From positions 1,302,001-1,366,000 of the forward strand of contig NZ_JAPEOR010000002.1 in assembly GCF_026341125.1 (NCBI RefSeq): DNA of 64,000 nt, in the 5' to 3' direction. Of this stretch, positions 35,281-54,305 are shown piece by piece. Numbering within the stretch: the first letter of the stretch is position 1; each line of letters begins with the position of its first letter. A model generated the notes under the pieces. The model worked only from the letters and a program-made list of their open reading frames with translations, made no database searches and was not told the origin of the DNA. The translations under genes and the position numbers were made by a program. Source of the stretch: Streptomyces sp. NBC_01142 (GTDB lineage Bacteria; Actinomycetota; Actinomycetes; Streptomycetales; Streptomycetaceae).

Positions 35281-35306
35281 GGGACAGCCCTCTCGTAGTT
35301 CAAATA

Positions 35307-35880: not shown

Positions 35881-35939
35881 GCACTGCTTCACGAGGCACC
35901 CGGCCGGAGAGCCACAACCACGCTGCGTACCCTCGTGGA

Positions 35940-36278: not shown

Positions 36279-36429
36279 TTGATTCGGCTTGCGGCTGCGC
36301 TCCCGCTCACGGCCCCACAGCGACGGGCCGCGCCCGGCCGGCCCCGACGCGCATCCAGCCTGCTCACGTCCACAAACAGCCAGAGGCTGAGCGTGGCCGC
36401 AAACAGCAGGAGACCAAAGCCGTCAGCCG

Positions 36430-37110: not shown

Positions 37111-37210
37111 CCGGCCACCACGTCGTTCCGCGCTCGTGTGCTGTCAGCCACATGGGACCGGCTGCTCGAAAGGCGGCCCGGCCCTGAGTGACTACTGGTC
37201 CTTTTGCAGG

Positions 37211-38771: not shown

Positions 38772-38982
38772 AGTGCGCGGCTGCGTCAAACACTCGCCTC
38801 ACCGGGTTGGCCAGGAGCTGGACGGCTGTTCGTAGTGAAGGCGAGGGGCAGTGCCGAGAACTGCTGCAAATTTGCGAAGACGCGGGATTTCGTGTCGGTG
38901 GCTGCCGCCGAACCGGCATGTACGACCGAAGGCCGACTTCCCTCGTAGGCTGAATCTCGCATGCGACGGACAGGAGGCTGAG

Positions 38983-39663: not shown

Positions 39664-39700
39664 TTGGCGGTGGCTCGTCGTCTCGGGCAGAAGTAGATGC

Positions 39701-39739
39701 CGAAGGCCCCCAGCCATGATCGGTTGGGGGGCCTTCGTA
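39701..39739. terminator. Hairpin terminator
   Basis: CGAAGGCCCCC pairs with GGGGGCCTTCG around a 15-17 base loop (39701-39739). It follows the alkylation repair gene and directly precedes the first tRNA-Val fragment. On the minus strand it is where the chromosomal tRNA-Val terminator would be expected. Confidence 0.8.
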
Positions 39740-39741
39740 CC

Positions 39742-39785
39742 GGTGGGCGCGGACGGTTTCGAACCGCCGACATCTGCTTTGCAAG
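39742..39785 (-). repeat. tRNA-Val 3' fragment, outer att-like site
   Basis: The 40 bases 39742-39781 are identical to the 3' part of the complete tRNA-Val at 54231-54305 (acceptor, T-arm and part of the anticodon arm); one mismatch follows, then AAG. Orientation is the same as the full tRNA. This is what a tRNA-directed integration leaves at the distal end of an element. Confidence 0.88.
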
Positions 39786-40313
39786 GTCAACCGCACGCCC
39801 CCTGCTGCTGGCGCTGCCATGGCTGCCTGTGCCGCGAGGAGACGTGCATGGCTGCTGAGATCCACCGCCGTTGATGTCAGCTGTAGATGTCAGCTCCTCC
39901 GCTCGACTCCGCTACGGCCGCCGGTAGGCAGACGAGTCGATCCCTGGCTCCGGCTCCCTCGTGGAGCCGGGTCCGGTGTGCTGCTGATCCGAGGTCCGCT
40001 CATCCTGTGATTCCCCCGTTTGACGGCCGTAGACCTCCACGCGCTGAACAGCGCCGCCGTCGGGTAACTCCTGCTCGCTCAGTGCGACTGGGCACTCGAC
40101 GTCGACGGGGTCGAGCACTGGGCATGCCGGCTGGAACCGGACCCCTCGAAGTGGCAGACAGAGCCGGCGTTCCGCCTGGCGGACTGGCGGGACCCGGGAT
40201 CCCCGGGACGCTCGCCCGGGGGGCCCGGCGGCTTTGACAGGGCACCGAGAGGGGAGGAGGGTGAAATGTGTCCTTTGATCCGATAAGCGATAGGTAGTCG
40301 GAGGTGCGTGAGG
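39786..40313. other. Short segment between two tRNA-Val fragments, no firm gene
   Basis: Two short frames look faintly coding: plus 40070-40240 (CDWALDVDGVEHWACRLEPD) and minus 39912-40118 (DVECPVALSEQELPDGGAVQ). They overlap antisense, so at most one is real, and neither has a start with a ribosome site. I call nothing here. Confidence 0.35.
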
Positions 40314-40556
40314 ATGCGCCGCAGGATCGTTGCCGCAGTTTCCGCAGGAGCCGCAGGGCTCGCGCTCGCAGTGATGCCCGCAACCGGGGCGTTCGCCTCG
40401 AGCGACTCCAGGGTTGATTACGGATGCTCCGACGGGAGGGACCGGGGCGACCGTCGAAGCGACTGCGGCTTCTTCGACAACCGCTACGACCGCTACGACC
40501 GCTACGACGGCTATGACAGAAACTTCGACAACGCGGTGATCTTCATCGTGCTGTGA
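40314..40556 (+). CDS. Small secreted Arg/Asp/Tyr-rich protein
   Basis: An 80-residue product with a signal peptide (RRRIVAAVSAGAAGLALAVM, then PATGAFA). The mature 50 residues contain two Cys (YGCSDG, SDCGFF) and a Tyr-Asp-Arg repeat (YDRYDRYDGYDRN). TGAGG precedes the ATG at 40314. The function is unknown; a charged, tyrosine-rich secreted peptide could coat the surface or bind metal. It is the only convincing gene between the two tRNA-Val fragments. Confidence 0.6.
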   Translation: MRRRIVAAVSAGAAGLALAVMPATGAFASSDSRVDYGCSDGRDRGDRRSDCGFFDNRYDRYDRYDGYDRNFDNAVIFIVL

Positions 40557-40750
40557 GAGGCCATCATGGGGGGCACTCGTCAGTGCGGGTGGCGCTGATC
40601 CATCAGCACCTGGTCAACGGTCGGGGTCACGCGATCGCCGCTCATGCCGACGAGCAGATCGTGGAGGTCCGGCCAGCAGAGCCAGAGGACGTATCTGGCA
40701 CATAGCCGGCACGACGCCCCTCCCCCGGCCGCACGGCCGAAGAACGATCA

Positions 40751-40793
40751 AGGCCCAGGCTTCCGGCTTACTACCGGTGACCTGGGCCTTTGT
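40751..40793. terminator. Hairpin terminator beside inner tRNA-Val fragment
   Basis: AAGGCCCAGG (40751-40760) pairs with CCTGGGCCTT (40782-40791), followed by TT. It sits 12 bases before the inner tRNA-Val fragment, in the same relative place as the hairpin at 39701. Confidence 0.8.
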
Positions 40794-40804
40794 CGTGCTT
40801 CCTA

Positions 40805-40852
40805 CTGGTGGGCGCGGACGGTTTCGAACCGCCGACATCTGCTTTGTAAGAG
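40805..40852 (-). repeat. tRNA-Val 3' fragment, island att-like site
   Basis: 48 bases are identical to 54230-54277, the 3' half of the complete tRNA-Val including the CCA and the sequence through the anticodon loop. Beyond it the sequences diverge at once. Together with the full tRNA it forms the direct repeats that bound a 13.4-kb island. Confidence 0.92.
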
Positions 40853-41367
40853 GTCCAAGAACCTAGATCATCTTTGCCGATCTTGCTTCGACTGCCCCAT
40901 TTTCGCTGGTCATAGGCAGGGTGGGCGAACCAAGGTGCGCGATCCTTACCGGTCTTTCCCGGTCCTTGCGTTCCCATGATGTTCCCAGCGGACGACATGG
41001 AGACCCCGGTGAAGCCCTGAGGTGATGTCGCCCCAGGCTGTGACAGTGCTGATTCCTTGACCACTGCAGTGCATTTGAGGTGCGGGGCAGAATCTGCCTC
41101 CTCGCCGGGGGGCGGGCCTATGACCGTTTTTGGCAGGTCAGCCGCCTGATCACAGACTACCGCCATGTCTCTGAACGGGCGGGGTGACCCAGGCCGCCTC
41201 CCGCTCGCCGGGCTCCAGCTGTAGAGGTCCAGCGACGTGGCGTCCACCAACCACCTGCTGTGGAAGGCCCCGTACCACGCGCCGCAGCTTCCTGCTCGCC
41301 CCTGCTGGCGTGCGCGGGAGGCACGGCCTGCGAGCGCATCTGACTCGACGTTCTGTTGTTGCCGCCC
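40853..41367. other. Gene-free island end with double-GTTCCC motif
   Basis: No protein-like frame is seen. At 40970-40987 lies GTTCCCATGATGTTCCCA, two GTTCCCA boxes 11 bp apart, matched near two other att-like sites (46385 and 54144). The remainder shows nothing I can name. Confidence 0.45.
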
Positions 41368-42687
41368 TCAGCAGTTGCCCCTCTCCGCCGGACGCATCAG
41401 CAGAAACGGATGCTTGTCCATCGTGATCTCCGGCTCGGCCGTCTCCGTGGCGGCGATCCGGATGTCATTGGTGATCAGATAGTCGTCCGCGACGGACAGG
41501 TGCGTGATCGGTCCGCCGGAAGGCTTGTGACAGGCCAGCTCCGCGCCGGACTTCGGGTTCAGCCTCACCAGGGCCGCTTCCTTGCCCTTCCACAAGTCAG
41601 AAGCCACCCAGACCGCGTCGGACGTGACGGCAGCGATCCTGAACGCGGGCCGGTTCAGGTCGTACTCCTGTTCCTGCCGCCTCCAGGCGCGCTTGCGGTC
41701 GACCGGGTTTCTGGTGGAGAGCGAGTGTCCTGCAGGCGTGGAGATGATGTCGACGGGCGGAAGACCGCGAACATCGGGGCGGGGCTGACCGGTTGCGAGC
41801 GTGACCGGCTTGCCCGCCTCGTTGATCCACCAGTACACCGGCTCCAGACCGTGCGTGCTGCCGACCGGGTGGTACTCCACGACGTCGCACACGGGCCCGA
41901 CGCATCCGTCCGGCTGAAGCATGGCGCCCGTCTGGTTCTCCGCCGGCCAGTCGGCGGCCGGCTCGAGGGTCGCCGTCTGCTTGCCGGTACGCGGGTGGAG
42001 CAGGCGCAGCTACGACTCACAGTCCTCGTCGACCACGACGGCATGGGTGGCCGTCCATGCCGTCCCGCTGGTATCGCAGCCCTTCCACGGCCTGTTCCAC
42101 AGTTTGTCGCCCGTGGCGGCGTCAAAGGCGACCACCCCGCTCTTGCCGATGCCGTGGGCCACGACCACCGGCCTCGGTCCCGGCACGAGGCGAAGGCTGC
42201 CGTACGTTGCCACGGTTTCGAACGCGGACCAGCGGTCCCCGATGTAGTCGGAGTCCTCCGCGCGCCAGGCGACGGCTCCGGTTCTGGCGTTCACGGCAAT
42301 CAACGCGCCGTCGTACCAGAGCGACACCACAAGGGGGTCCCCCTTCCCGCGGTCGACCACCGCGACCTTGTTGAGCTCCTCCTCGCGCTCGTACGACCAG
42401 AAGACAGGAGCCTTCTCGGGCGCTTCCAGCGCCTCCGCCCAGACCTTGCCGGCCGCGGTCATCACCCGGAGCCTGCGGTCGACGACCAACGGCCGCGAGG
42501 GCAACGCCACCTGGAACCCGGCGGTGGGCCGCTCCACCCTGTTCGGATAGGTCCCACTCGCTTCGGTGACCCGCTCCTTGACCTGCTTCTCTCCGCCGAT
42601 CGTGCAGGCCGCCAGCACGGTCAGGGCGGTGATCGCCCATATCCCCCGCAGCCCCACCCGTCGTCGGCAACCTCTCGCGTTACGCAT
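41368..42687 (-). pseudogene. PQQ-type beta-propeller lipoprotein with in-frame TAG
   Basis: A single frame of 440 codons runs from the ATG at 42687 to 41368, interrupted only by TAG at 42010-42012. It starts with a lipoprotein signal (WAITALTVLAAC, lipobox LAAC). Propeller-type strands follow (VSLWYDGALIAVNARTGAVA, VVAFDAATGDKLWNRPW; after the stop LRLLHPRTGKQTATLEP and LVRLNPKSGAELACH), the BamB/PQQ-repeat pattern. Without the stop it would be a surface-anchored propeller of about 439 residues. A point nonsense mutation is the simplest reading, giving 225 + 213 residue halves. Confidence 0.8.
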
Positions 42688-42778
42688 GCGGCGGATCCTA
42701 GCCAGTAGGCGCAAACGCGGAACGGCGGCCGTCCCTCCGAGGAGGGGCGGCGGCCGTTCAGGCCTGTCGAGCAGTTCG

Positions 42779-42982
42779 TCAAACCAGCGGGCTGATCGCC
42801 GTGGGGGCGTGGCCCGGCTCCGTGGCCAGGTCCTCCCACTCGTTGATCGCGTCGATGCCTGCGCCAACCATCGAGATGTTGGTGACGCGCTCCAGGATCG
42901 CCTCGACGACCACCGGGCGGAACTCCGCGGCGAGCTTCGTGGCCTCCTCGAAGGCCGGCAGCAGCTGGTTGTCCTTTGACAA
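42779..42982 (-). CDS. Helical protein fragment of unknown family
   Basis: The frame reads SKDNQLLPAFEEATKLAAEF, RPVVVEAILERVTNISMVGA and GIDAINEWEDL. It is protein-like and helical, ending at 42779. A TTG at 42982 is a possible start; further upstream the frame becomes Arg-rich nonsense. It may be the C-terminal part of a longer lost gene. Confidence 0.4.
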   Translation of the reverse strand: MSKDNQLLPAFEEATKLAAEFRPVVVEAILERVTNISMVGAGIDAINEWEDLATEPGHAPTAISPLV

Positions 42983-43493
42983 CGAAGTCAGTCGTCCACT
43001 GCGCGCTAACCTGCGGCGACTACCTTGATTGGCAAGGGAGCCCGTGGCGCCGCCCGTCCGCTGACGCCGTGATCTGGGGCGGCTGGATTGGACGGCAAGG
43101 AACTCCACAGGCTGAGTTCGACGTCACCGGGGATGTCGGCAACCGTGCCACGGCAAAATCACTGTGCGAGCTGGGGCGTTGGGCGCAGCCCGAGGAAGGG
43201 TGCGCAACACCAAACGCGAGAGGAAGCGCGAGGGCAATCGCAACAGCCTCAGGCCCCACACCGAGTGCACTTGCAGCCCAGGCCCTCGACGACCTTGACG
43301 TGTGTCCTGTCGCACCGAACCTTGAGCGAATCTCACCGAAGACTGACGGATTGCAGTTCGTCTCATCGAAGGTTAAGTACGCAGGTCAGGGCGTTGCGGC
43401 AGCGGACCGCATGATCGCGGCCGATACTGCACAGGTACGGTTGGACGGCGGCCGGGAGCAGCAGATCCAAAGGGCAACCTCCGTCGCGACGGT
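42983..43493. other. Gene-free stretch in the island
   Basis: Open frames exist on both strands but none has family features or a supported start. Nothing structural was found. Confidence 0.35.
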
Positions 43494-43937
43494 TCAGCGA
43501 AGCAGTGCTGCGCGCAGGGTGATGCCGTGCCGCGTACGCAGCCGCCGCAGCTCCCACATCGCCACGGCGGTGACGGTCAGCGGGGCTCCCAGGATGAAGG
43601 CCACCCGCACTCCGAACGGCACACCGTCGTAGGCACCCCGGAATACGTCGAAGAGAGCGACTTCCCAAACGAGCAGCGTCGCGAGCAGCGGTGGAACCGT
43701 CTCGTGGAGGTCTGCTGTCCGGAAGACGTGCACGAGTGACTGCGCGATGCCGTAGAGACCAAAGGGGGCGAGCCACAACATGAAGGCGCCTAGGGCGAAC
43801 AGCAGCGCCACCCGCCCTGCCGACGCCGTCCAGTTCGTTTCCTCGTCCACGTAACCCAGCCCCGTGATCAGTCTTGGCACAGCGAGCGTGACGACCAACG
43901 CGAGCAGCGCCCCGGCGGGCTTACCCACGCGGGACAA
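43494..43937 (-). CDS. Small membrane protein overlapping the MBL gene
   Basis: A 147-residue protein with four hydrophobic segments (AGALLALVVTLAVPRLITGL, VALLFALGAFMLWLAPFGLY, PPLLATLLVWEVALFDVF and VRVAFILGAPLTVTAVAMW). The family is not recognised. Its start overlaps the end of the metallo-hydrolase gene by 17 bases on the same strand, so it would be third in the sulfur operon. Confidence 0.65.
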   Translation of the reverse strand: MSRVGKPAGALLALVVTLAVPRLITGLGYVDEETNWTASAGRVALLFALGAFMLWLAPFGLYGIAQSLVHVFRTADLHETVPPLLATLLVWEVALFDVFRGAYDGVPFGVRVAFILGAPLTVTAVAMWELRRLRTRHGITLRAALLR

Positions 43938-44706
43938 GAACAGGCGCCGGTTGGGTGGGCGGGCCGCCGAGTACGTCCGGACCGGACCGGTTGATCGGCG
44001 CCATGTAGTGGTAGTAGGCGGGGTACGGCGGCAGGCCTGCCAGCCGCCCGCTGATGAACTCCTCCTCGTCCCGGGTGGTCAGCGCGAGGTTGGTACGCCG
44101 CTCGGCGCCCAGGGTGGTCGTCCTGGCCCCCGACACAGGGCCGGCCGCGCAGGAGCTCCCCGCTCCGTGCGTCGGCAACACCCTCGTGGCATCGGGCAGC
44201 AGCGCCAGTCGTCGAAGCGAACGGAACTGCGCCCGGGCGAGCTCCTCCGTGTGGTCCTCGCCGGACAGGTCGGTGCGGCCGGCGGAGCCGACAAGGAGGC
44301 TGCCTCCGGTGAAGACGGCGGTCGGCGGCTGCAGTGTGTCGTCGAAGACGAGGTACGAGGTGTGCTCGGCGGTGTGCCCGGGCGTCTCCATCGCCCGCAC
44401 GGTCACATCCCCGATGGAGACCTCGTCGTCCTCCGCCAGCCCCAGATGATCGAACGCGTACGGGGCGCGGGCCGGGACTGCCACCGTGGCTCCGGTCGCC
44501 GCGCGGACCTCCAGAGCACCGGAGACGTAGTCGTTGTGCACATGCGTCTCCAGGACGTACCGGATCCGCACGCCCCTGGAGGTACAGGACTCCATCAGCC
44601 CCCAGCTGTCCCGCTGCGGGTCCACCAGTGCGGCCTCGTCGCCGCTGACGAGGAGATAGCTGGTGTCACCCAGCGACGCGGTCGTCATGATCTCGATCTC
44701 GCTCAT
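43921..44706 (-). CDS. MBL-fold persulfide-dioxygenase-like hydrolase, rhodanese part missing
   Basis: The 261-residue protein reads ASLGDTSYLLVSGDEAALVD, THVHNDYVSGALEV (metal motif HxHxD), METPGHTAEHTSYLV and VLPTHGAGSSCAAG. This is the MBL part of ETHE1/MBL-rhodanese proteins that oxidise glutathione or protein persulfide to sulfite. It ends at the linker (SGPDVLGGPP) after which related proteins carry rhodanese domains, so the gene looks truncated at that joint. The ATG at 44706 is chosen; it lies 17 bases after the sulfite-oxidase-like gene. Confidence 0.85.
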   Translation of the reverse strand: MSEIEIMTTASLGDTSYLLVSGDEAALVDPQRDSWGLMESCTSRGVRIRYVLETHVHNDYVSGALEVRAATGATVAVPARAPYAFDHLGLAEDDEVSIGDVTVRAMETPGHTAEHTSYLVFDDTLQPPTAVFTGGSLLVGSAGRTDLSGEDHTEELARAQFRSLRRLALLPDATRVLPTHGAGSSCAAGPVSGARTTTLGAERRTNLALTTRDEEEFISGRLAGLPPYPAYYHYMAPINRSGPDVLGGPPTQPAPVLVPRG

Positions 44707-44723
44707 GCCGTCTCCTGAACCCC

Positions 44724-45857
44724 TCATACGACGACCACCTCGACGGATGCCACGGGGTTGCTGCCGTATCCCCCGGCGTTCCACGGCGCCCGCGGCGGCT
44801 GGGTGCCGCCGTGCTCGTCGGTCGCGCGGGCCAGTAGCCGGTACTGGCCAGGCCGACGGGGCGTCCACCGGTACGACCAGCCGGTCCAGGCGTACGGCCC
44901 GGACGGTGGCTCCAGCACGGCGTCGTACCAGTCCCTGCCGCTCAAAGGGCCTTCGCCTCCGTAGCCGTCCTCCTCACCGCTGTGACCGTCCGCTTCCTCG
45001 TACGCAACCTGCATCTCGACCCGCAGCACGGGGACCCCGCCGCCCGACCAGGCCCGGCCACGTACGAGAGTCTCGCGGCCTCGGCGGATCACCGAGTCCG
45101 GTTCGGGTGCGGTGATGAGGGACTTGACCCGCACGGTCGTCACGGGCCCGTCGGGGGTACCGCGCGACGCGAGATAGACATACTCCTCAGTCTGAAAGAC
45201 CCCGCTGAAGGGCTCCATCACAGCCCGCGCCTCGACCAGCCACTTCACGTCGGCGACCGCGTACCGCCCGGGGACCACCAGACGGACCGGCGCCCCGTGC
45301 TCGGGCGCGAGAGGCTCACCGTTCATGTGAGTGGCGAGGAGGGTGTCCGCGTGGAGAGCCACAGCGAGCGGGAGGCTCCGCTCGAACGCCGTCCGGCGGC
45401 CGTGCATAGTGCCGAAGTCGGCTCCGCCGAAGACGATTTCCACGGCTGCCCGGTCGATCCGGGCCCGGGTGGCGAGGCAGTGGAAGGGCACCCCGGCGAA
45501 ATGTGCGCAGCCGACGGCCCCTTGCCCCCATGGCAGGCCTGTCGGCCGGGGTGACATCTGACTGCGGCCGTTCCCCGCGCATTCCAGTACGACGTCGAAC
45601 TCCCGGCGCTCCATCGTGAGCAGCTCGTCGTAGCCGATGCCGAACGGCTCGGCCGCGGCTCCGCCGAGCCGCAGCCGCCACTCGCGGTGTGTCGTCCGCG
45701 GGATGCCGAAGTGATCGCGCACGAAGAAGGCACCCACAGGTGTGACCGGCTCGGCAAGCGCGGCCGGCGGCGTCTGAGCGTTGTACGGGTCGGCCGTGAC
45801 CGTCTCGGGTGCCCAGACCGTAGCGCCGGCCTCACGCGGAATTGGCCGTGCGGTCAT
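44724..45857 (-). CDS. Molybdopterin-dependent sulfite-oxidase-like enzyme
   Basis: The 377-residue protein has the SUOX/YedY-type molybdopterin fold: FFVRDHFGIP, VVLECAGNGRSQM near residue 90 with the Mo-ligating Cys, GGADFGTMHGRR, SLPLAVALHADTLLATHMNG and GAPVRLVVPGRYAVADVKWL. The C-terminal Mo-co dimerisation domain follows (TTVRVKSLITAPEPDS, YRWTPRRPGQYRLLARATDE). There is no Tat signal and no haem domain, so it is probably cytoplasmic. It would oxidise the sulfite produced by the next gene. GAAGGGG precedes the ATG at 45857. Confidence 0.9.
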   Translation of the reverse strand: MTARPIPREAGATVWAPETVTADPYNAQTPPAALAEPVTPVGAFFVRDHFGIPRTTHREWRLRLGGAAAEPFGIGYDELLTMERREFDVVLECAGNGRSQMSPRPTGLPWGQGAVGCAHFAGVPFHCLATRARIDRAAVEIVFGGADFGTMHGRRTAFERSLPLAVALHADTLLATHMNGEPLAPEHGAPVRLVVPGRYAVADVKWLVEARAVMEPFSGVFQTEEYVYLASRGTPDGPVTTVRVKSLITAPEPDSVIRRGRETLVRGRAWSGGGVPVLRVEMQVAYEEADGHSGEEDGYGGEGPLSGRDWYDAVLEPPSGPYAWTGWSYRWTPRRPGQYRLLARATDEHGGTQPPRAPWNAGGYGSNPVASVEVVVV

Positions 45858-46002
45858 AGCAACCCCTTCCGTCGGGCTCCTATCGAGCACGACGCGGGTT
45901 TCCTTCAGTCTATGTCCGGCGCCCGGCTGCGGCAGAACTCCCCTACGCGCCTGGAGGGGGCACGGCCCACATCGGTCCTACGGACAGGCAGACGCGGGGC
46001 TG

Positions 46003-46060
46003 AGTAGGGTCGGGGGCTGGCGCGGTGGCTTCCGCTCCGTTTCCAGCCCCCGACCCTACT
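46003..46060. repeat. Perfect 18-bp inverted repeat
   Basis: AGTAGGGTCGGGGGCTGG (46003-46020) is exactly complementary to CCAGCCCCCGACCCTACT (46043-46060), with a 22-base centre. It lies upstream of the sulfur operon. It could be a bidirectional terminator stranded by rearrangement or the footprint of a mobile element. Confidence 0.75.
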
Positions 46061-46273
46061 AATGATCTGTTACCTCCAGGTTTTTGACGTGCGGGGCTGT
46101 GGTGTTGACGCGTCTGCCGGTGCGATCGAGCCTCGATGGCTGAGTGGGGTGGCAGCTGAGGTGGGATGCGGCTCACGCCTGTCTCATCCCAAGACGCCCT
46201 GTTCTACGCCGTGCTTCCATGGTCGGCACTGCGCGCCTGGGCGCACTCGCCTCAGGGCGGTACGTCCAGGGCA

Positions 46274-46333
46274 TGAGCGAGCGACGCCCGTATCCGAGCG
46301 ATCTGTCCGATGCCCGCTGGGAGTTGATCGAGG
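46274..46333 (+). mobile_element. IS5-family transposase N-terminal scrap
   Basis: From the ATG at 46274 the plus strand reads MSERRPYPSDLSDARWELIE, the typical start of Streptomyces IS5-type (DUF4096) transposases, then turns into unrelated sequence. Only about 20 residues remain. Confidence 0.75.
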
Positions 46334-46384
46334 GTGCCTCATACATGCAAGGAAAGCCGACATAGACGACTTACCGGAAAGTCC

Positions 46385-46402
46385 GTTCCCCGAATGTTCC
46401 CC
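46385..46402. repeat. Double-GTTCCC motif, inner copy
   Basis: GTTCCCCGAATGTTCCCC: two GTTCCCC boxes 11 bp apart. It is followed by a hairpin at 46415-46446 and a tRNA-like 3' fragment at 46476, the same order and spacing as at 54144-54231. Confidence 0.65.
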
Positions 46403-46414
46403 TCAGACGCCGAA

Positions 46415-46446
46415 AAGGCCCTCCGTGATCCATCACGGAGGGCCTT
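46415..46446. terminator. Perfect 15-bp stem hairpin
   Basis: AAGGCCCTCCGTGAT (46415-46429) pairs with ATCACGGAGGGCCTT (46432-46446) with almost no loop. The sequence after it, TCAAGGCTCTGACCTGG, resembles the one after the hairpin at the tRNA-Val end (TCATGGCCCTGACCTGC). Confidence 0.8.
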
Positions 46447-46475
46447 CAAGGCTCTGACCTGGCGTTTCTTGAGCC

Positions 46476-46501
46476 GCCTTCGGGATTCGAACCTGGCTCC
46501 G
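46476..46501 (-). repeat. tRNA-Thr-like 3' fragment
   Basis: On the minus strand GGTTCGAATCCCGAAGGCGGCT reads as the T-loop, the 3' strand of the T-stem and an acceptor strand AGGCGGC, as in a tRNA starting GCCGCCT (tRNA-Thr type). Homology to a tRNA stops inside the T-stem. It looks like the att core of a second, related element with a different tRNA target. Confidence 0.5.
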
Positions 46502-46725
46502 CGGCTGACAGGCTGTCCTTTCTGCCTGTGGGTGCGCTGTGGCGCCTTGACCGCGCACCGTGCCCACATCGGGACGCGGGGGACCGCAGTCGAGATGGAT
46601 TCGGCCCGCGGTCCCGCAAGGGGTGGCTCCGGCGCGCAGTCTCGCTGTCAGCTCAACCGATTGCCCAACGCCCGGATTATCTGGAGCTCATGGCCCCAGG
46701 CCCCCGGTAGCGTGCACGGTAGGAT

Positions 46726-47493: not shown

Positions 47494-47909
47494 ACGAGCA
47501 CGGCGAGGAGCTGGAAGTGGAGCGGCGCCAAGCGGGTCTCTACGGGGTGGCGGAAGAGGAGATGCCCCGATTCCGCGCGTTCTGCAGCGCCGTTGACACG
47601 CTGATCGAAACGGTCCTGGCAGACGCCTCGAAGGTCGGCAAGAAACGGGCGCTTCGTTTGGAGCGCGCCGCCAAGCACCTGGTGCGCGCCTCCCACCGCA
47701 CGCAAGATGACGGATCCGTCTGGGAAGAGGAGGCGGACGAGATCACGCTGCAGTACGTCATCGCTGTGGAGGCACTGCTGACCGGCGATAGGATCAGCGG
47801 GGTCGCCCAGAAGATCAGGCAGCGAGCGGCCATGCTCTGGATGACGACCGCTTGTGTGCGGATGGTCATTGACTGCATTTCGAACGGCGAACGCGGGCCA
47901 GTCACGTAG
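47478..47909 (+). CDS. Apea-like HEPN-domain protein (C-terminal part)
   Basis: The 143-residue product is helical. RALRLERAAKHLVRASHRTQ and then ITLQYVIAVEALLTGDRISG followed by VAQKIRQRAAMLW match the Apea-like HEPN family, in which the RxxxA helix packs against the E-A-L-L helix. HEPN proteins are often RNases in defence or toxin systems. Most Apea-HEPN proteins carry an N-terminal region of 200 or more residues, possibly the broken frame upstream. It overlaps the convergent MFS gene by eight bases. Confidence 0.65.
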   Translation: MDIFVNEHGEELEVERRQAGLYGVAEEEMPRFRAFCSAVDTLIETVLADASKVGKKRALRLERAAKHLVRASHRTQDDGSVWEEEADEITLQYVIAVEALLTGDRISGVAQKIRQRAAMLWMTTACVRMVIDCISNGERGPVT

Positions 47910-49068
47910 TCGCTCGGGTGACCGCCCGTCCGCCGGGCCCCTGGCCGTAGCCCGGTGGGCGCTCAGGGTGTGCTGTGCGGCGGCGGGCTGTGAGGGCGAG
48001 CAGCGGACCTGCGGCGATCAGGATGGCGAGGGCCGCGTATCCGTAGGCGAGGGTGGTGACCGTGGCGACGGCGGCGACCAGGAGCGGGCCGCCGGCGTCG
48101 CCGAGTTCGCGGCCCAGTTCGGCGGAGCCCATGGTCTGGCCGAGGCGTTCGGCGGGGGTGGAGGCGGCCAGGGCGGCGAAGCCGAGCGGGGTGATCAGGC
48201 CGGTGCCGATGAGAGCGGCGGCGAGCAGGACCCCGGCCAGGCCCGGCAGCATGGCCGCCGCGAGTCCTGTCGCCGTGATGAGGAGCCCGGCGAGGAGTCC
48301 GGCCCCGGTGGTCAGGCTCCCGGTGTCGAGAACACGTCCGGCCCTGGGCTGCACCACGGCGGCGGTCGCGGCGAGGACGGAGACGGCCGCGCCGGTGGCG
48401 ACGGTGCCGAGCCCGGCGCTGGCGCCGGAGACGGGCAGGAAGCCGACGCCGACGGAGAGCGCGGCGGTGGCGGCGGCGAGTGCGGCCGTGGGGGCGAGGA
48501 AGGATCGGTCGGCCAGGCGGCGCGCGAGGACGGCCCACAGAGCGAGGGCGGCCGCGCACACGGCCATCACCGTGAACAGCAGCCGCAGGCCGCAGGCCCA
48601 GACCAGGACACCGCCGAGCAGCGGGCCGAGGGTGTAGCCGATGGACTTGTAGAAGCCGTAACTCCCGAATGCCCGCCCGTGCTTGGCCGCCGGGTTCAGT
48701 CTGGCCACGAGCGCGGAGGCCGACGGCGAGAAGGCGGAGGCAGCCGCCCCCTGCCCGAGGCGGGCGGCCCACAGCCAGCCGGGACTGTCGGCGATCGCGT
48801 ACAGCGCGGACGCGGCGGCGAAGGCGACGAGCCCGCCGAGAAGCACGGGCTTTGCACCGATCCGGTCGGCGAGCGAGCCGAAGACCGGCTTGAGCAGCAC
48901 CTCGGCACCGTCGTACAGGGCGAGCAGTCCGCCCAGGACCAGGAGCGAGGTGACGGCGTCCTTGGAGAATCCGCCAAGGTTGGCGGCGATGCCGTGGGCG
49001 CCGAAAGCGGTGGTGAATCCGGCGGCGTACAGCGGCCACATCGCCCGCCTCGCTGCTATCGCGGTCAT
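47902..49068 (-). CDS. MFS transporter linked to chrB
   Basis: The 388-residue protein has 12 membrane segments, a motif A variant (GSLADRIGAKPVLLGG, residues 63-78) and YGFYKSIGYTLGPLLGGVLV (motif-C-like). It overlaps the chrB-like gene upstream by ATGA, so the two are translated together; in Streptomyces, ChrB-type genes are often followed by this kind of MFS gene, suggesting metal-oxyanion efflux. The substrate is not provable here. Confidence 0.88.
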   Translation of the reverse strand: MTAIAARRAMWPLYAAGFTTAFGAHGIAANLGGFSKDAVTSLLVLGGLLALYDGAEVLLKPVFGSLADRIGAKPVLLGGLVAFAAASALYAIADSPGWLWAARLGQGAAASAFSPSASALVARLNPAAKHGRAFGSYGFYKSIGYTLGPLLGGVLVWACGLRLLFTVMAVCAAALALWAVLARRLADRSFLAPTAALAAATAALSVGVGFLPVSGASAGLGTVATGAAVSVLAATAAVVQPRAGRVLDTGSLTTGAGLLAGLLITATGLAAAMLPGLAGVLLAAALIGTGLITPLGFAALAASTPAERLGQTMGSAELGRELGDAGGPLLVAAVATVTTLAYGYAALAILIAAGPLLALTARRRTAHPERPPGYGQGPGGRAVTRATT

Positions 49069-49508
49069 GGGGTGGGCTCCTCGTCGGCGGCGTGCAGGGC
49101 GACGAAGACGCGCTCGGCGTACTCCTCACAGACGGCCGTGCACCGCTTCAGGCGCTTGGCGGCCTCAGCGGCCTGCGGGGCGCCGAAGACATCGCGCACG
49201 GTCAGGTCCCGGTGCCAGCTCCGCAGCCGCTCCAGGCTCTGCTCCTCTTCCTCAAGCTCGGCCTGGGTGAACTTGGCGACCCGGACCTCCTTGGCGATCT
49301 CCTCCTCGAACTTGCCGCAGTCCGCGAGGAATTCGGTCCAGTCCGCAGAGCGGGCAGCGGTGAACATCTCCCGGAAACGGGCGGCGTCCTGGTCCGAGCG
49401 GCCGGACGCCCGAAGCGTCACACCCTGCCCGCCCGCGCTGTCGGTGAGGTCGAGAGCGCGCTGCACGCCGTCGGCGAAGACGGGCACCTCCGCACGAGGC
49501 CGGAGCAT
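49065..49508 (-). CDS. ChrB-type chromate-resistance protein, N-terminally truncated
   Basis: The 147-residue frame matches the second half of the ChrB N-terminal domain: ASGRSDQDAARFREMFTAAR, WTEFLADCGKFEEEIAKEV, AELEEEEQSLERLRSWHRDL and GAPQAAEAAKRLKRC. Normal ChrB has about 60-70 more residues at the front. Here the sequence starts abruptly at MLRPRAEVPVFADGVQ, and other gene scraps begin right beside it. ChrB proteins regulate chromate resistance operons. Confidence 0.75.
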   Translation of the reverse strand: MLRPRAEVPVFADGVQRALDLTDSAGGQGVTLRASGRSDQDAARFREMFTAARSADWTEFLADCGKFEEEIAKEVRVAKFTQAELEEEEQSLERLRSWHRDLTVRDVFGAPQAAEAAKRLKRCTAVCEEYAERVFVALHAADEEPTP

Positions 49509-49525
49509 GGAGAAAGGACCCGGGT

Positions 49526-49780
49526 ATGGCGTGGCCGGCGAAGCTGGTGGGTGTGGCTGCGGTGGGCGGCGGCGCTGTGGCCGGGTATCTGGGATTGGTG
49601 ACTGGGGCGCTGCCGCTGGATGTGGGCGTTGGCCGGCGGACCCGCCCGCTGGGGCCGCAGACGGTCGGCATCCAAGCCCCCCGGGAGGTCGTCTTCGACG
49701 TGATCGCCCAGCCGTATCTCGGGCGGGCCACCCGGGCGATGCGGGAGAAAGTACATCGCCGACGCCCGCCCGCTCGATGA
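49526..49780 (+). pseudogene. SRPBCC-family protein, truncated
   Basis: From the ATG at 49526: WPAKLVGVAAVGGGAVAGYL, a membrane helix, then TRPLGPQTVGIQAPREVVFD and VIAQPYLGRATRAMREKVH. This is the start of a Streptomyces SRPBCC (START-like) protein. It stops after 84 residues where the ligand-binding fold should continue, and runs into the methyltransferase scrap. Confidence 0.65.
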
Positions 49781-49960
49781 GTACCTGGAGATCCTTACCG
49801 CAGCCGGGCTTCGCACCGTCCACACCGTCCACACCGAGCGCCACGACCAGGCGATGCGGCGCATGATCGACCAGATCGAGGCCCGCCTGAACGTGCTGCG
49901 CATCAACGCCCCCGACAAGCTCACGACGGCCGTCGTGGACGTGAACTTGTGCCTCCCGGC
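49748..49960 (+). pseudogene. Methyltransferase C-terminal scrap
   Basis: The frame reads YIADARPLDEYLEILTAAGL, then RTVHTVHTERHDQAMRRMID and QIEARLNVLRINAPDKL. This resembles the C-terminal helices of arsenite-methyltransferase-like SAM enzymes. TVHTVHT looks like a small duplication. The SAM-binding part is absent. Confidence 0.5.
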
Positions 49961-50170
49961 TTCCTGGCTGGATGGTTCACCTGGCGACTCACGGTGGCGG
50001 TCATATCTCGTTCAGGTCGGTGACCGCTGCTCCCAGACCGTGGTGAGTGCCGCGACGGGGTCAGTGTCGGCCGGTGCCGCGTGTCACCATTCGCCCTCGT
50101 CGTCCGGAGGTGGGATACCAGCGGTGTCATGGCCGCCCAGTGTCACCCCGAGGGTCGCTAGTGTTGCCCC

Positions 50171-50482
50171 ATGAGCGTGTCGGACACGGCCGAGCTTGAG
50201 GCCATGATCGAAGAGGCGACTGTCGACGCCTACAACGAGGACGAGCAGCTGACCGGTCTGTTCACCATGCTTGAGGAGCACCTCGACCTGCCCTTCACCA
50301 CCGCGGTTCTCGGCGTCGAGGTAACCGTGGGCGGCATCGACCTCACACCGGACGGCAGGATCGTCGCCCTGTGCTCTCGCGGCGGCATGCGGCAGTCGAT
50401 CGAAATCCTGGAGTTGCCGTTGCGCAGCCCGGCGCCCGATGGTGCGGAGTGGATCGAGGCGTACCGTCACTGGGCCGGTTGA
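50171..50482 (+). CDS. Conserved hypothetical protein
   Basis: A 103-residue acidic protein: TAELEAMIEEATVDAYNEDE, GLFTMLEEHLDLPFTTAVLG, VEVTVGGIDLTPDGRIVALC and PDGAEWIEAYRHWAG. This pattern is common in Streptomyces islands and often labelled calcium-binding. The LDLPFTTxVLG...WIxAYRxW layout is conserved as I remember it, with function unknown. Confidence 0.75.
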   Translation: MSVSDTAELEAMIEEATVDAYNEDEQLTGLFTMLEEHLDLPFTTAVLGVEVTVGGIDLTPDGRIVALCSRGGMRQSIEILELPLRSPAPDGAEWIEAYRHWAG

Positions 50483-50519
50483 GGCCGGGCACCTCACACC
50501 CCACACGGAACCGGCTTGT

Positions 50520-51740
50520 ATGGAAGGGCTGAACGTGGCTAACGCCGTACAGGGCACGCATCAGGACGTCGGCGAACCGTCGCTGACCGACCTCATCGAG
50601 CGCAGTGCCGAGTTGAAAGGGCAGCTGGTCGCCTTCGGGCAGAGTGCCCGCTTCGACCGGTGGTTGACGCCCCTCCTGCTGGAGGCTGCAGGGCCTGAGC
50701 GGCAGTTGGACGAGGGCGAGGCGATCCAGATCATCGACCACTTCATCCTGCGGTACCGCCTGCCGGACGGTTCGACCGTGGTGGACCGGTTCGTCGCCGG
50801 ACGGAAGGACTTGACTGCGGTCGACCGGGAGATGCTGCTCGGCTGGCGTGACCCGGTCGAGGGCATCTTCGAGATCCAGCGCAAGGAGAAGGATGCCGTC
50901 GTCCTGCTGAACCTGGTCGACGACCTGGAGTACCGCACGTACTCCAATGTGGGGCGGGCGGCGTTCCGTGGAATGTCCAAGGGGAGCTTCCTGCACACCT
51001 GCCTGGTACCCGTCCACTCGGCCGGCGGGGCGTGGCTGGTGTCCGGGGCGATGTCGAGCTACCGCAAGTCCAGCGCCACCGAGATCGCCCAGGCCGCTCT
51101 CCGCCTGGCCACCAGCCGGCCCGAACTGGTCTTCCGTAACCCCGCGAAGATCGAGCAGGGATGGCAGCGGATGCGGGAGGACCGGGCCGCGTTCGTCGAG
51201 TTCTGCGGAGGCGACGAACTGGTCCTTCCGCCTGCCGAAGCCGAGGACCTCCTCAATGGCTACTACCGTCACCGCCAAGAGGCCGCCGTCGCCGGACAGC
51301 CCGACCGTGCCCGGGGCAGGCGGCTGCCCGGCCTGGACCTGCCCTTCTTCGAGCTGCCGGGAGAACTGGCGGACTCGGACACCATCGGTGTCATCTACGA
51401 CCAGGTCGACGGACTCAACTTCTACGCGGACTACGGGATGCTGCGGGACCTCTTCGCGGACCCGGCCCTCGCGGGCCGCAGGCAGCACGAGGACCTGTTG
51501 CGCACGTACCTGCGCGAGGAGTCGATCGCGCCACTGCCGATCCGCCGACTGGCTGCCGCTCACCCGGAAACAGCCGACGTGGTGTTCCGAAAGCTGCTGC
51601 GGAAGCCCGGGTTCACCTGGAGCGAGCACGGCGAGGCACTGTTGCGCCGACGCAAGCCCTGGTACTACGCGAACAAGCCCCGCCCTGGCGTCTCCGTAAT
51701 CGGCGACCGCCTCAGTGCGCTTGCCGCCGGCCGTCGATAG
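50520..51740 (+). CDS. Unrecognised 400-residue protein
   Basis: About 406 residues, fully protein-like, mostly helical with acidic and basic patches (DLIERSAELKGQLVAFGQSA, VVDRFVAGRKDLTAVDREML, FHTCLVPVHSAGG-like strands, LLGWRDPVEGIFEIQ). The C-terminal part has LLRTYLREESIAPLPIRRLA and a basic end (RRRKPWYYANKPRPG). There is no signal or membrane segment. The start may be the ATG at 50520 or the GTG at 50535, the latter behind GAAGGG. I do not recognise the family. Confidence 0.7.
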   Translation: MEGLNVANAVQGTHQDVGEPSLTDLIERSAELKGQLVAFGQSARFDRWLTPLLLEAAGPERQLDEGEAIQIIDHFILRYRLPDGSTVVDRFVAGRKDLTAVDREMLLGWRDPVEGIFEIQRKEKDAVVLLNLVDDLEYRTYSNVGRAAFRGMSKGSFLHTCLVPVHSAGGAWLVSGAMSSYRKSSATEIAQAALRLATSRPELVFRNPAKIEQGWQRMREDRAAFVEFCGGDELVLPPAEAEDLLNGYYRHRQEAAVAGQPDRARGRRLPGLDLPFFELPGELADSDTIGVIYDQVDGLNFYADYGMLRDLFADPALAGRRQHEDLLRTYLREESIAPLPIRRLAAAHPETADVVFRKLLRKPGFTWSEHGEALLRRRKPWYYANKPRPGVSVIGDRLSALAAGRR

Positions 51741-52050
51741 TCACCGTTCACACCGTCGTGACTGCTGCACAACACTGCCCGTCCTCCGCCCATGCTGCGT
51801 TTCCGAAGGTCAGTGCGTGATGGGTGAAAGAGGCTTGACTGACCTCGACACAGCCCCGGACGTCCTGAACGCGGCGCGCGCCGCCGTCGCCGACGGCACC
51901 CTCGGCTATGCCCTGCTCATTGCTGAAAAGCCCCGGGACGCCTGGGCGGACTACCGGCGCGTACGTAAGCGTGCTCACATACCTGCGCATGCCATGAGCC
52001 CTAGCGTCAGTGCTGCAGCACAAATCCGCAGGCAGGAAAGGACATTGACC
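51741..52050. other. Intergenic stretch with possible N-terminal scrap
   Basis: A plus frame from 51821 reads MGERGLTDLDTAPDVLNAAR then AAVADGTLGYALLIAEKPRD and ADYRRVRKRA before entering the next gene's leader in frame. It looks like the start of a lost gene. No other feature is seen. Confidence 0.35.
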
Positions 52051-52536
52051 ATGACCATCGCCGTACAGATAACGCCCAGAATCGCCGCCATTCCCGTCCA
52101 CGCGGCGTGGGGAGCCGCGGCCGGCCTGGTCGGCGGCGCCGGGATGGGCATCTGGATGACGGTGTCCGAACCGATGCCGGACACTGCGATGATCACCATG
52201 GTGGCCAGTCTCCTCGGCTCGACCAACGCCTTCGCCGGCTGGCTGATCCACCTGGCCATCGCACTCTTCGCCGGCATCGCATTCGGCGCCCTGCTGGGCC
52301 AGTTCGCCCAGCGCCTCACCTCCGCGGCGGTCCTCGGCCTGGTCTACGGCGCCGCGTGGTGGTTGATCGGCGCCTTGTGGATCATGCCCGCCAACATGGG
52401 CATGCCCGTCTTCGAATGGAACGACGTCACCCGCTCCAGCCTCGGCGCCCACCTCGTGTACGGACTGCTCGCCGGACTGACCTTCGCCTGTATCGCGCGG
52501 GTGATGGGCAAGCGGACGGACCCGGATAGCCGATGA
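52051..52536 (+). CDS. Four-helix membrane protein upstream of Crp regulator
   Basis: A 161-residue protein with four hydrophobic segments (AAWGAAAGLVGGAGMGIWMT, GWLIHLAIALFAGIAFGALL, AAVLGLVYGAAWWLIGALWI and LVYGLLAGLTFACIARVMG). The pattern resembles YagU/DUF1440-type proteins, but I am not certain. The ATG at 52051 follows GGAAAGGA. Its stop overlaps an ATG at 52533 that could start a longer Crp protein. Confidence 0.65.
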   Translation: MTIAVQITPRIAAIPVHAAWGAAAGLVGGAGMGIWMTVSEPMPDTAMITMVASLLGSTNAFAGWLIHLAIALFAGIAFGALLGQFAQRLTSAAVLGLVYGAAWWLIGALWIMPANMGMPVFEWNDVTRSSLGAHLVYGLLAGLTFACIARVMGKRTDPDSR

Positions 52537-52724
52537 CGCGGATACCGCCCGCGCAGGCCGGCGGGCCGGGCATACCACCGCAGGGGGCTGCCCTGCGCGC
52601 CAGCACGCCCGACGGGGGCGCTGTGCCCTACTGTCTGGCCGAGGGCGCGGACGCGCTGGCCAGCCCGGCGTGGGGCGCCGCACCCCCGCCCTGGGCGCCG
52701 GGACGACGCGAGGAGACGCACCAC

Positions 52725-53435
52725 ATGATCGACGCCGGTTCCGACGCCGAACGGACCTGGTGCCTGGCCGAGGTCGACATCTTCTGCGACCTGTCCGAGC
52801 AGGAAATGGAGGCCATCGCCGCCGCAGCGCCGATGAAGACCTACACGGCCGGGGAGATGCTGTACTCCCCGGCCCAGCCGTGCGAGGTGTTGTTCATCCT
52901 TAAAAGGGGCCGGGTGCGCGTCTTCCGGGTCTCCGCCGACGGCCGTGCGCTCACGACCGCGATCATCACCCCGGGCACCATCTTCGGCGAGATGGTCCTC
53001 CTCGGGCAGCGCATGTACGACAACTACGCCGAGGCCCTCGACGACGCGGTGGTGTGCGTCATGAGCCGCGCGGACGTGCACCGCTTCCTCCTCGCGGACG
53101 CCCGCATCTCCGCCCGCATCACCGCGATCCTCGGCCGCCGCCTCGCCGACCTCGAACAGCGCCTGTCCGACAGCGTCTTCAAATCCGTCGCCCAGCGCAT
53201 CGCCACCACCCTGGTCACTCTCACCACCGCCCAGCCCCAGCCGGGCCCCTTGCGGCCCGGCGCCCGCCACCCGCAGATCGCTCTCACCCACGAACAACTC
53301 GCCGCCCTCGCCGGCACCTCCCGCGAGACCTGCACCAAAGTCCTGCGCGAGTACGCCGACCGCGGCCTGCTGCGCCTGGCCCGCGGCCGCATCACCGTCC
53401 TGGACCCGGCACGCCTGAAGGACGAAGCCGGATAA
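52725..53435 (+). CDS. Crp/Fnr-family transcription regulator
   Basis: The 236-residue protein has a cNMP-binding-like beta-barrel (FCDLSEQEMEAIAAAAPMKT, GTIFGEMVLLGQRMYDN, residues 20-130), a dimer helix, and a Crp-type helix-turn-helix (LTHEQLAALAGTSRETCTKV then LREYADRGLLRLARGRITVL). The region before the barrel has one Cys but no FNR Fe-S cluster motif. AGGAG lies nine bases before the ATG at 52725; the frame is also open from 52533 (ATGA overlap), but that extension is Pro/Ala-rich and lacks domain features. The target is unknown; the sulfur operon is a candidate. Confidence 0.88.
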   Translation: MIDAGSDAERTWCLAEVDIFCDLSEQEMEAIAAAAPMKTYTAGEMLYSPAQPCEVLFILKRGRVRVFRVSADGRALTTAIITPGTIFGEMVLLGQRMYDNYAEALDDAVVCVMSRADVHRFLLADARISARITAILGRRLADLEQRLSDSVFKSVAQRIATTLVTLTTAQPQPGPLRPGARHPQIALTHEQLAALAGTSRETCTKVLREYADRGLLRLARGRITVLDPARLKDEAG

Positions 53436-53639
53436 CCCTGCCGCGGAAGCAGGGCCTCACACGACCGCTCGAACTCAAGGAGCCTCCTGGGCCCTGACGT
53501 GGCCTCAGGCTCGCCGACAGGGCCGCCCCGGTGGCACGGGGGAGGGCCACCGGGGCGGACATCCCCAGCATCGCAGAACCGCGACCCAGGCGGTCCGCCC
53601 TACTCCGACTTCTTCCCCATTGTCTTGCCGCAGCCGCAC

Positions 53640-54029
53640 GTCGGGCTCTGCCGACCGGTGCAGGTCGGCGGGCCGGCGCATCTGCGGCGCCGTATCGCTG
53701 CGGGATGGATGCCGAGCGCGATCGGGTCTGCCAGATCACGGACACGGCAGCGTTTCGCGCGTCCGCTCGTGCCAGGAGTTGGGATCGCACCGATGTCCCG
53801 GCGCCGCAGCCGCTCCGCCAGCACACCTTGAGCGTCGGCCGTAAACACGCCGACCAGTGCGGCACCGGACGCGGCCACTACCGCCGCCATCCATGCCGAC
53901 AACCAGGTACCCCCAAGCCAACACCGCAGCCGCGCCACCACCGGATACACCGATCAGCACAACCCATGGCCGCAGTGATCGCCAGAACATCAAGCCCCCG
54001 GATGACGCCACAACACCACGTATGCCCAC
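53640..54029 (-). pseudogene. STAND-NTPase-type N-terminal scrap
   Basis: Two minus frames join as a membrane-anchored N-terminus: SLRPWVVLIGVSGGGAAAVL and AWGYLVVGM, then, after a shift near 53900, ALVGVFTADAQGVLAERLRR and VRDLADPIALGIHPAA. The last motif (LxDPxALGxHPA) commonly precedes the NTPase core in Streptomyces STAND/TPR conflict proteins. The core is absent. Confidence 0.5.
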
Positions 54030-54143
54030 CCATGTTCACGGCTGGCAAAACCCAGCGTCGATAGCGCAGCCGACATCAGGTTAGCCCCGAACCGTATTCG
54101 ACTATCGAAAATCTAGACATAGGAGATTTATACGAACATCAAC

Positions 54144-54161
54144 GTTCCCAGGATGTTCCCA
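54144..54161. repeat. Double-GTTCCC motif at tRNA-Val end
   Basis: GTTCCCAGGATGTTCCCA: two GTTCCCA boxes 11 bp apart, 70 bases inside the island from the tRNA 3' end. It matches 40970-40987 and 46385-46402. Confidence 0.7.
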
Positions 54162-54174
54162 TCTGGGCACAGAA

Positions 54175-54206
54175 AAAGCCCCCCACGATCTTCGTGGGGG
54201 GGCTTT
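54175..54206 (-). terminator. Terminator downstream of tRNA-Val
   Basis: AAAGCCCCCCACGA pairs with TCGTGGGGGGGCTTT around a 3-base loop. It lies 25 bases beyond the 3' end of the tRNA on its own strand; an A-run on the plus strand gives a U-run in the tRNA transcript. Confidence 0.85.
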
Positions 54207-54230
54207 CATGGCCCTGACCTGCATCTTTTC

Positions 54231-54305
54231 TGGTGGGCGCGGACGGTTTCGAACCGCCGACATCTGCTTTGTAAGAGCAGCGCTCTACCACTGAGCTACG
54301 CACCC
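54231..54305 (-). tRNA. tRNA-Val(UAC)
   Basis: The minus strand folds as a full cloverleaf: acceptor GGGTGCG/CGCGCCC, D-arm GCTC...GAGC, anticodon stem CTGCT/AGCAG with loop CTTACAA (anticodon TAC), T-arm GGCGG/CCGTC around TTCGAAA, discriminator A and encoded CCA. It is the target of island integration: its 3' half recurs at 40805 and 39742. Confidence 0.97.

Follow-up and report, generated by a model that had tools for sequence, protein, structure and literature searches.

The stretch analysed here (the window; 64,000 nucleotides from the 10.1 Mb genome of Streptomyces sp. NBC_01142) holds a composite island at the 3′ end of a tRNA-Val(UAC) gene, the sole tRNA called in the window by ARAGORN. 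The 3′ half of this gene forms an attachment (att) core that is repeated twice, in direct orientation, on the 3′ side of the gene, the arrangement that insertion at the 3′ end of a tRNA would leave (Table 1). Att copy 2 is identical from the tRNA 3′ end to 4 nt beyond the anticodon, and att copy 1 up to the anticodon edge. An exact 40-base core occurs at 39742, 40807 and 54232, where 100 dinucleotide shuffles give an expectation of 0; a search tolerating as many as 15 mismatches finds the 44-base core nowhere else in the window. A terminator-like hairpin directly adjoins each of the three core copies, and all three hairpins differ, which looks as if each element had supplied its own. The complete tRNA gene and its direct repeats at 40805-40852 and 39742-39781 are therefore confirmed by ARAGORN, exact blocks and shuffles, and the repeated integration at tRNA-Val that a preliminary description of this DNA had read from them is supported. 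That reading of a composite island was right in kind but incomplete, since the ends of three integration systems and a wider variable region are present.

Table 1. Features of the tRNA-Val(UAC) locus, in window coordinates
Feature	Position	Strand	Remarks
Older variable sequence beyond the last att copy, including a DNA-alkylation gene (38851-39663)	31700-39741		Not found at this site in relatives, within the stretches read
Terminator-like hairpin left of att copy 1	39702-39737		B-type or native-like
Att copy 1	39742-39785	+	Exact block 39742-39781 (40 bp); 43/44 overall, BLAST 98%
Hybrid unit, 1.06 kb	39786-40804		B-type distal end left, A-type proximal end right
B-type distal arm doublet GATGTCAGCTGTAGATGTC	39873-39891	+	87 bp from end of 44-base core
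Remnant of family-A tyrosine integrase, last 39 codons	40586-40702	+	Sequence match, hidden Markov model (HMM)
A-type terminator-like hairpin	40748-40793		As beside tRNA-Val in relatives with family A
Att copy 2	40805-40852	+	48/48 bp identical to tRNA-Val 3′ half (BLAST, exact-block comparison)
C-type unit, 13.4 kb	40853-54230		Bounded on both sides by att and C arms; without a match to tyrosine or serine recombinases
C arm doublet, distal GTTCCCATGATGTTCCCA	40970-40987	+	163 bp from att core start
Metallo-beta-lactamase-fold hydrolase	43921-44868	-	
Molybdopterin oxidoreductase (Oxidored_molyb + Mo-co_dimer)	44724-45890	-	Pfam
Second C-type proximal end, degenerate, within the 13.4 kb unit	46359-46493	+	
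Major facilitator superfamily (MFS) transporter	47902-49068	-	
ChrB N-terminal domain protein	49065-49844	-	
Crp/Fnr regulator	52533-53435	+	Region 51951-53424 common with C unit of Streptomyces sp. NBC_01481, 81%
AT-rich junction left of proximal C arm	54075-54143		Integrase-tail position in integrase-bearing relative; common to tRNA-Thr C units
C arm doublet, tRNA-proximal GTTCCCAGGATGTTCCCA	54144-54161	+	Starts 88 bp from att core
Terminator-like hairpin of C unit beside tRNA 3′ end	54173-54207		Common to tRNA-Val and tRNA-Thr units
tRNA-Val(UAC), integration target	54231-54305	-	ARAGORN; att core formed by its 3′ half (54230-54277)

Beside tRNA-Val, relatives carry two families of tyrosine integrase, A (378 aa; loci L104 and L108) and B (384-385 aa; L106, L113 and L103). 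The elements checked with Pfam (L108 for A, L103 and L113 for B) all have FtsK, RepSA and the integrase between att repeats, and in the family A element an HTH_17 gene precedes int. Families A and B in relatives are thus actinomycete integrative and conjugative elements (AICEs), which likewise combine FtsK/TraB, RepSA and an integrase at a tRNA 3′ end (PMC3218068; this and the other papers cited are drawn on in excerpt). Between integrase and att core lies a doublet of a short repeat, TGGCAC-TGGCAC in A and GATGTCAG-GATGTC in B, and a doublet matching this proximal one accompanies the distal att copy at a spacing that hardly varies. By analogy, we name these doublets arm sites. Counted from the att core, the A doublet lies at 115-118 bp (distal) and 103-111 bp (proximal), the B doublet at 87 bp at nine of ten distal sites and 98 bp at the tenth (window included), with 57-58 bp proximally, and a third type, C, at 119 and 88 bp. 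A recognisable doublet is present at 18 of the 27 distal att copies typed, with the window included and a doubtful copy at L062 excluded. Among the typed units, some have B at both ends (in G039, G018, G021 and G053) and some have A at both ends (in G030, G041 and G024); five units in four genomes are B-distal and A-proximal: one each in G002, G024 and the window, and two in G040. Together, the tRNA-end repeats and the doublets and hairpins peculiar to each element type mark the ends of three integration systems, A, B and C, at this tRNA-Val.

B-type doublets also stand at att copies of tRNA-Arg (L157 in S. olivochromogenes A53; L141 and L142 in S. diastatochromogenes, genome G033), and arm types are therefore not bound to a single tRNA. 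The linear megaplasmid NZ_CP109170.1 of Streptomyces sp. NBC_01724 carries three tRNA-Val 3′-half copies (L131:297-12050), and such sequence is also present on linear megaplasmid NZ_CP108854.1 (L132:8001-8045). By eye, A- or B-like doublets lie beside these copies, and ARAGORN calls no tRNA in the stretches read; att copies therefore also reside on plasmids.

The 1.06 kb unit between att copies 1 and 2 had been described as a small integrated element. It is instead a fusion of the ends of two systems, because the A-type hairpin and A integrase tail lie left of att copy 2 and the B doublet lies right of att copy 1. The B distal offset is the one found in eight of the nine other B-armed distal copies. 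Over the length of the remnant, the integrase tail is 54-74% identical to the A integrases of relatives, and it is also matched by a custom HMM (built from eight integrases of this genome plus the family A and B proteins, with the C-type integrase P0001 added in one search). The claim that no integrase remains thus holds for complete integrases and for PF00589, which has no match in the window, but a family-A remnant survives at 40586-40702. A related hybrid in G002 has a reading frame that, by eye, resembles RepSA joined to a broken A integrase. The unit in the window also contains an 82-aa open reading frame (ORF; 40308-40556) with a signal-like start and a Tyr/Asp/Arg-rich tail, and DNA overlapping or close beside it matches G273, G034 and G230. 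Elsewhere in the same genome, the B-type distal end (window 39765-39959) recurs with 92% identity at C2:1795674-1795869 (L126:7675-7870). This copy retains about 21 bp of the att core only, lies about 454 kb from the island and is joined to unrelated sequence; it is a displaced or secondary-site remnant.

The 13.4 kb unit is bounded by the third type of end. Its C arms, GTTCCCANGATGTTCCCA, stand at 40970 and 54144, at both ends of the unit, and these are the only two copies of the exact motif in the whole 10.1 Mb genome. In a six-frame search of the genome with all candidates scored, neither PF00589 nor PF00239 has a match in 40.85-54.23 kb. FtsK, relaxase and RepSA are absent among the Pfam-scanned ORFs of the unit; no six-frame search was made for them. 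The unit thus retains attL and attR and lacks an integration gene, as does a cis-mobilizable element (CIME), defined in PMC5704250 and described there as a decay product of an integrative and conjugative element (ICE) or an integrative and mobilizable element (IME). It has no PF00589 match that would mark the own integrase of an IME, nor, with FtsK and RepSA judged on the scanned ORFs, the FtsK/TraB, RepSA-type gene and integrase of an AICE. Within the unit, the degenerate second proximal end consists of an arm (GTTCCCCGAATGTTCCC, 46385-46401) and a hairpin, after which 23 nt from the 3′ end of a tRNA-Thr are present (46471-46493); part of the 13.4 kb unit therefore seems to have been formerly in a tRNA-Thr insertion.

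The cargo agrees with the preliminary description as to the molybdopterin oxidoreductase, ChrB N-terminal domain, MFS and Crp/Fnr genes; an Apea-HEPN protein was not found in the ORFs scanned. SorA/SoxC-like matches of the cargo score far below curated cut-offs. PADLOC returned no defence gene among eight ORFs, and PHROGs no match among eight sequences. A phage origin was considered and dropped, the 75-bp tRNA-Val gene being without match in 50,697 phage records (near mode). A plasmid origin was likewise set aside; the two Streptomyces megaplasmids named above do carry tRNA-Val 3′ copies. Across 392 genomes (one or two candidates each), the listed matches outside this genome cover at most about 2 kb of the unit, and among them different parts of the unit match different places in different genomes.

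The tRNA-Val site itself is a hotspot. Its surroundings were searched in 61 genomes, this one included, with 14 candidates scored per genome and the copies counted by hand; at least 19 of the 61 hold one or more extra tRNA-Val 3′-half copies within 65 kb on the 3′ side. Forty loci were read from 34 of the 60 other genomes, extending on the 3′ side to about 18 kb or more (0.5 kb in G028). On the 5′ side, the genes at window 54310 or 55377 adjoin tRNA-Val in 33 of the 34 genomes. The empty site that had been predicted, with the DNA-alkylation gene joined directly to tRNA-Val, did not appear: this gene is near tRNA-Val in 0 of 34 genomes in the stretches read and matches other chromosomal places in many genomes, and a VTT-domain gene (window 28594-29313) is found on the 3′ side in 21 of 34 instead, only about 390 bp from tRNA-Val in G044. 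The variable region therefore starts near 29.3-31.7 kb and not at 39.7 kb. Conserved synteny of the 39.7-54.3 kb content, named earlier as grounds for giving up the island, was looked for, and none of the genes of 31.9-53.4 kb was found at this site in the stretches of the 34 genomes (40% coverage, E ≤ 1e-12); the content is thus missing from the site in relatives, as is that of a tRNA-targeted genomic island.

C-type ends recur in other Streptomyces. The exact proximal 18-mer, searched in 84,980 species genomes, gave 18 stretches, 11 of them in Streptomyces. In all 11, a tRNA 3′ end (five) or a tRNA 3′-half copy (six) lies 66-90 bp from the start of the doublet. One stretch is at tRNA-Val (NBC_01481), six are at tRNA-Thr (TRM68367, S. 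guryensis, ISL-98, ISL-1 twice and A3M-1-3) and four at tRNA-Arg (S. diastatochromogenes, S. olivochromogenes A53, TRM70350 and S. wuyuanensis); for the A53 copy ARAGORN calls tRNA-Pyl, and the letters are those of the tRNA-Arg core. For the other seven of the 18, ARAGORN calls no tRNA within 320 bp downstream. Loci L152 and L167 are the same assemblies as G033 and G034 (S. wuyuanensis) and are not independent of them; L209 and L210, from a different contig of NBC_01481, were left aside. In 100 other genomes, the C motif occurs in five, one copy each, always beside the 3′ end of a tRNA (three of Arg-CCT, one each of His and Thr); the copy at tRNA-His, in G091, has no distal partner in the stretch read and was left uncounted. 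A 172-bp query from the C proximal end of the window matches seven of 295 genomes (this one included, at most two candidates per genome), and the C type is therefore uncommon. Three of these seven (G062, G273 and G182) show variant doublets at Thr or Arg copies, with no integrase by the custom HMM. Four IMG/VR viral contigs (L168-L171) also hold GTTCCCANGATGTTCCCA; ARAGORN calls no tRNA in the available stretches.

C doublets and tRNA repeats bound six units on both sides. Two lie at tRNA-Val (13.4 kb in the window and 25.4 kb in NBC_01481), one at tRNA-Thr (9.8 kb in G055) and three at tRNA-Arg (7.7 kb in S. diastatochromogenes, 4.2 kb in G089 and 3.1 kb in S. olivochromogenes A53). C units were defined by regular expressions, a definition that misses any whose arms have diverged. 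The start of the distal doublet is 161-163 bp away from that of the core, or 173 bp in G089. None of the six bounded units, which span 3.1-25.4 kb and three tRNAs, has a PF00589 or PF00239 match, and a B integrase fragment lies directly outside the S. diastatochromogenes unit. PF00589 was searched in G000, G033, G089, G055 and G392-G395, and PF00239 in G000, G033, G089, G055, G392 and G393; A3M-1-3, ISL-98, TRM70350, S. wuyuanensis and the variant ends of G062, G273 and G182 were covered by the custom HMM only. Four further C proximal ends, on ISL-1 contig C35, in a larger A53 unit, in TRM70350 and in G273, have a left repeat but no C doublet at it.

Sequence is also common to C units of different species and different tRNAs. 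The AT-rich sequence of about 60 bp left of the proximal doublet is found in the window, NBC_01481 and the Thr units, at the position where TRM68367 has an integrase tail. The stretch from doublet to hairpin is 69-100% identical among the window, NBC_01481, G055, ISL-98, ISL-1 and A3M-1-3, at two tRNAs. The NBC_01481 unit at tRNA-Val has the distal arm and spacing of the window and matches it over 340 bp at the distal end (87%), over 263 bp in the interior (96%) and over the 1.5 kb that include the Crp gene (51951-53424; 81%). Between NBC_01481 (Val) and S. wuyuanensis (Arg), whose unit is unbounded since its contig ends, 952 bp left of the C proximal ends are 88% identical. In Streptomyces sp. 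ISL-1, C-type Thr ends occur on two contigs (L163, L166); they agree at 98% over 467 bp, and one lies at an intact tRNA-Thr, the other at a fragment of such a gene. Pfam analysis of ten ORFs of the NBC_01481 unit gave metabolic genes, a sigma factor and an IS110 transposase, and no site-specific recombinase. By eye, the S. diastatochromogenes cargo resembles an ESX-type secreted protein with its partner, and the G089 cargo resembles a carbonic anhydrase and a SulP transporter.

An integrase adjoins the C doublet in one of the 11 stretches, that of TRM68367 (P0001; 526 aa, with its stop codon 6 bp before the doublet and a small HTH gene as neighbour); the custom HMM finds none in the remaining ten. 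Its best relatives in the NBC_01142 genome match at 40% over 426 aa and 50% over 123 aa, and no close copy was found there. Homologues of the TRM68367 integrase occur in 81 of 150 genomes (E ≤ 1e-30, nine candidates per genome) at 37-51% identity. As general helpers of C units they were rejected: a TTCCC doublet lies within 420 bp downstream in 0 of 30 loci inspected, all 30 having other doublets, and these homologues therefore use other arms. Several P0001-related integrases (L172-L201) have, by eye, doublets of their own before the att core, for example GCTCACGCATCGCTCACGCA, which suggests that each integrase subfamily may have one doublet type.

We interpret the region, with high confidence, as a tandem accretion at the 3′ end of tRNA-Val(UAC), composed of B/A remnants and an outermost, CIME-like C island. 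Tyrosine integrases would have recombined the tRNA 3′-half copy of each element with the tRNA gene; every insertion would have rebuilt an intact tRNA and brought a new terminator, so that the next element could enter the rebuilt gene. A B-type and an A-type element would later have fused via an internal deletion, giving the 1.06 kb unit with its B distal end and 39 A codons. The 13.4 kb C-type island would be the youngest and outermost unit, with both att ends and arms kept and the recombinase absent. It may work like a CIME, leaving or moving only if an integrase reading GTTCCCA arms and the tRNA-Val core is supplied, and it is probably immobile now because no close copy of such an integrase was found in its own genome.

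Several points weigh against this picture of the locus. The A doublet has decayed in the window, so the A label is read from the integrase tail and the hairpin; nine of the 27 typed distal att copies have no recognisable doublet; and the exact C pattern stands beside the tRNA-Val core in one of 392 genomes. The insertion order is taken from position only. The hairpin at att copy 1 could be native, which makes a B element further left uncertain, and the matched C arms could be the legacy of a single old insertion that simply lost its integrase through decay.

How the C units came to lack an integrase bears two main answers. The first, to which we give an even chance, is that they once bore an integrase and lost it together with replication and transfer genes, while useful cargo was kept. 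Decay of AICEs with repeats and cargo retained has been described in Streptomyces (PMC9513070), the A and B units here are also decayed, some A-type ends keep a hairpin only, without arms or integrase tail (G025, G058, G053), and a degenerate internal end lies within the window unit. This account is strained by the recurrence of a similar integrase-less junction at two tRNAs in several species. That A ends keep an integrase piece is a weak contrast, since they were found by searching for that piece. The second answer, possible though the less probable, is that C units are a family of integrase-less cargo islands, or satellites, that spread in trans through a helper such as the TRM68367 integrase, so that the integrase-less state would be normal. 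It would accommodate the placement of all 11 exact 18-mer stretches beside a tRNA or 3′-half copy with an integrase in one, the six bounded units at three tRNAs without recombinase match, the similar junction at tRNA-Val and tRNA-Thr in different species, the cargo common to tRNA-Val and tRNA-Arg units, and the two C copies in ISL-1. On the other side, mobility of the C units is putative, a single integrase is known with C arms, and helper and satellite were not found together in one genome. Vertical inheritance of a decayed unit accounts for part of the sharing, four C proximal ends have no C doublet at the distal copy, and the switch between tRNA targets is left unaccounted for. Plain loss of the integrase is slightly favoured over spread in trans because mobility is only putative and helper and satellite were not found in one genome. 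Ordinary tRNA pseudogenes or rearrangement scars amid native cargo are an extremely improbable account of the att copies: we found no point in support, hairpins and arms like those of the copies occur in elements that have an intact integrase at this tRNA, the cargo genes were not found at this site in the stretches of the 34 relatives, and relatives with the cargo but without att copies would revive the idea, whereas the comparison showed the opposite.

Tandem accretion with decay at tRNA genes of Streptomyces, as we read it at this tRNA-Val, is well supported and known in kind. PMC9513070 describes accretion at tRNA-Arg in Streptomyces, and an element, AICE03, in tRNA-Val with 46-nt repeats. 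There too, several element families and integrases share one tRNA and remnants carry direct repeats; in the part drawn on, however, the accretion is at tRNA-Arg, whereas in the window arm doublets type the ends and a B/A fusion and an integrase-less C unit are present. Tandem AICEs are reported at tRNA-Arg and tRNA-Lys (PMC3218068); in the window, by contrast, A and B survive as end fragments only. The C unit resembles a CIME in keeping attL and attR, in having no integration genes and in standing in tandem with other elements, and differs from the CIMEs of the excerpts of PMC5704250 in that C units recur with common ends at three tRNAs in several species. The islands at ssrA in Dehalococcoides likewise lie in tandem behind one RNA gene, 15 of them without an integration module and suggested to be CIMEs (PMC3146451), but in the passages concerned they involve a serine recombinase, a single target gene and no typing by arm sites. 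Hitcher elements, clusters of attC sites lacking integron-integrases (CALINs) and miniature inverted-repeat transposable elements (MITEs) also have no recombinase of their own and depend on a helper; as the relevant passages of PMC11389934 present them, they are cassette arrays or transposon derivatives and not tRNA-targeted islands. The letters of the C motif were not found in open-licence PubMed Central papers. The new part is the integrase-less C units with common ends across species and three tRNA genes.

Islands without an integrase are usually dismissed as dead. Arm doublets provide a readable label for the ends of tRNA-integrated elements, one that allows decayed and fused islands to be typed and paired and that points to a particular candidate helper integrase. 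Tentatively, C-type islands may be dispersed, non-autonomous cargo islands of Streptomyces, with exchanged cargo, without a recombinase and bearing only two end sites made up of tRNA core, paired GTTCCCA arms and terminator, inserted at tRNA-Val, tRNA-Thr and tRNA-Arg by helper integrases in trans as a tRNA-targeted counterpart of CALINs and MITEs. If it is true that C units move in trans, this would offer a mechanism for some unexplained integrase-less islands of actinomycetes.

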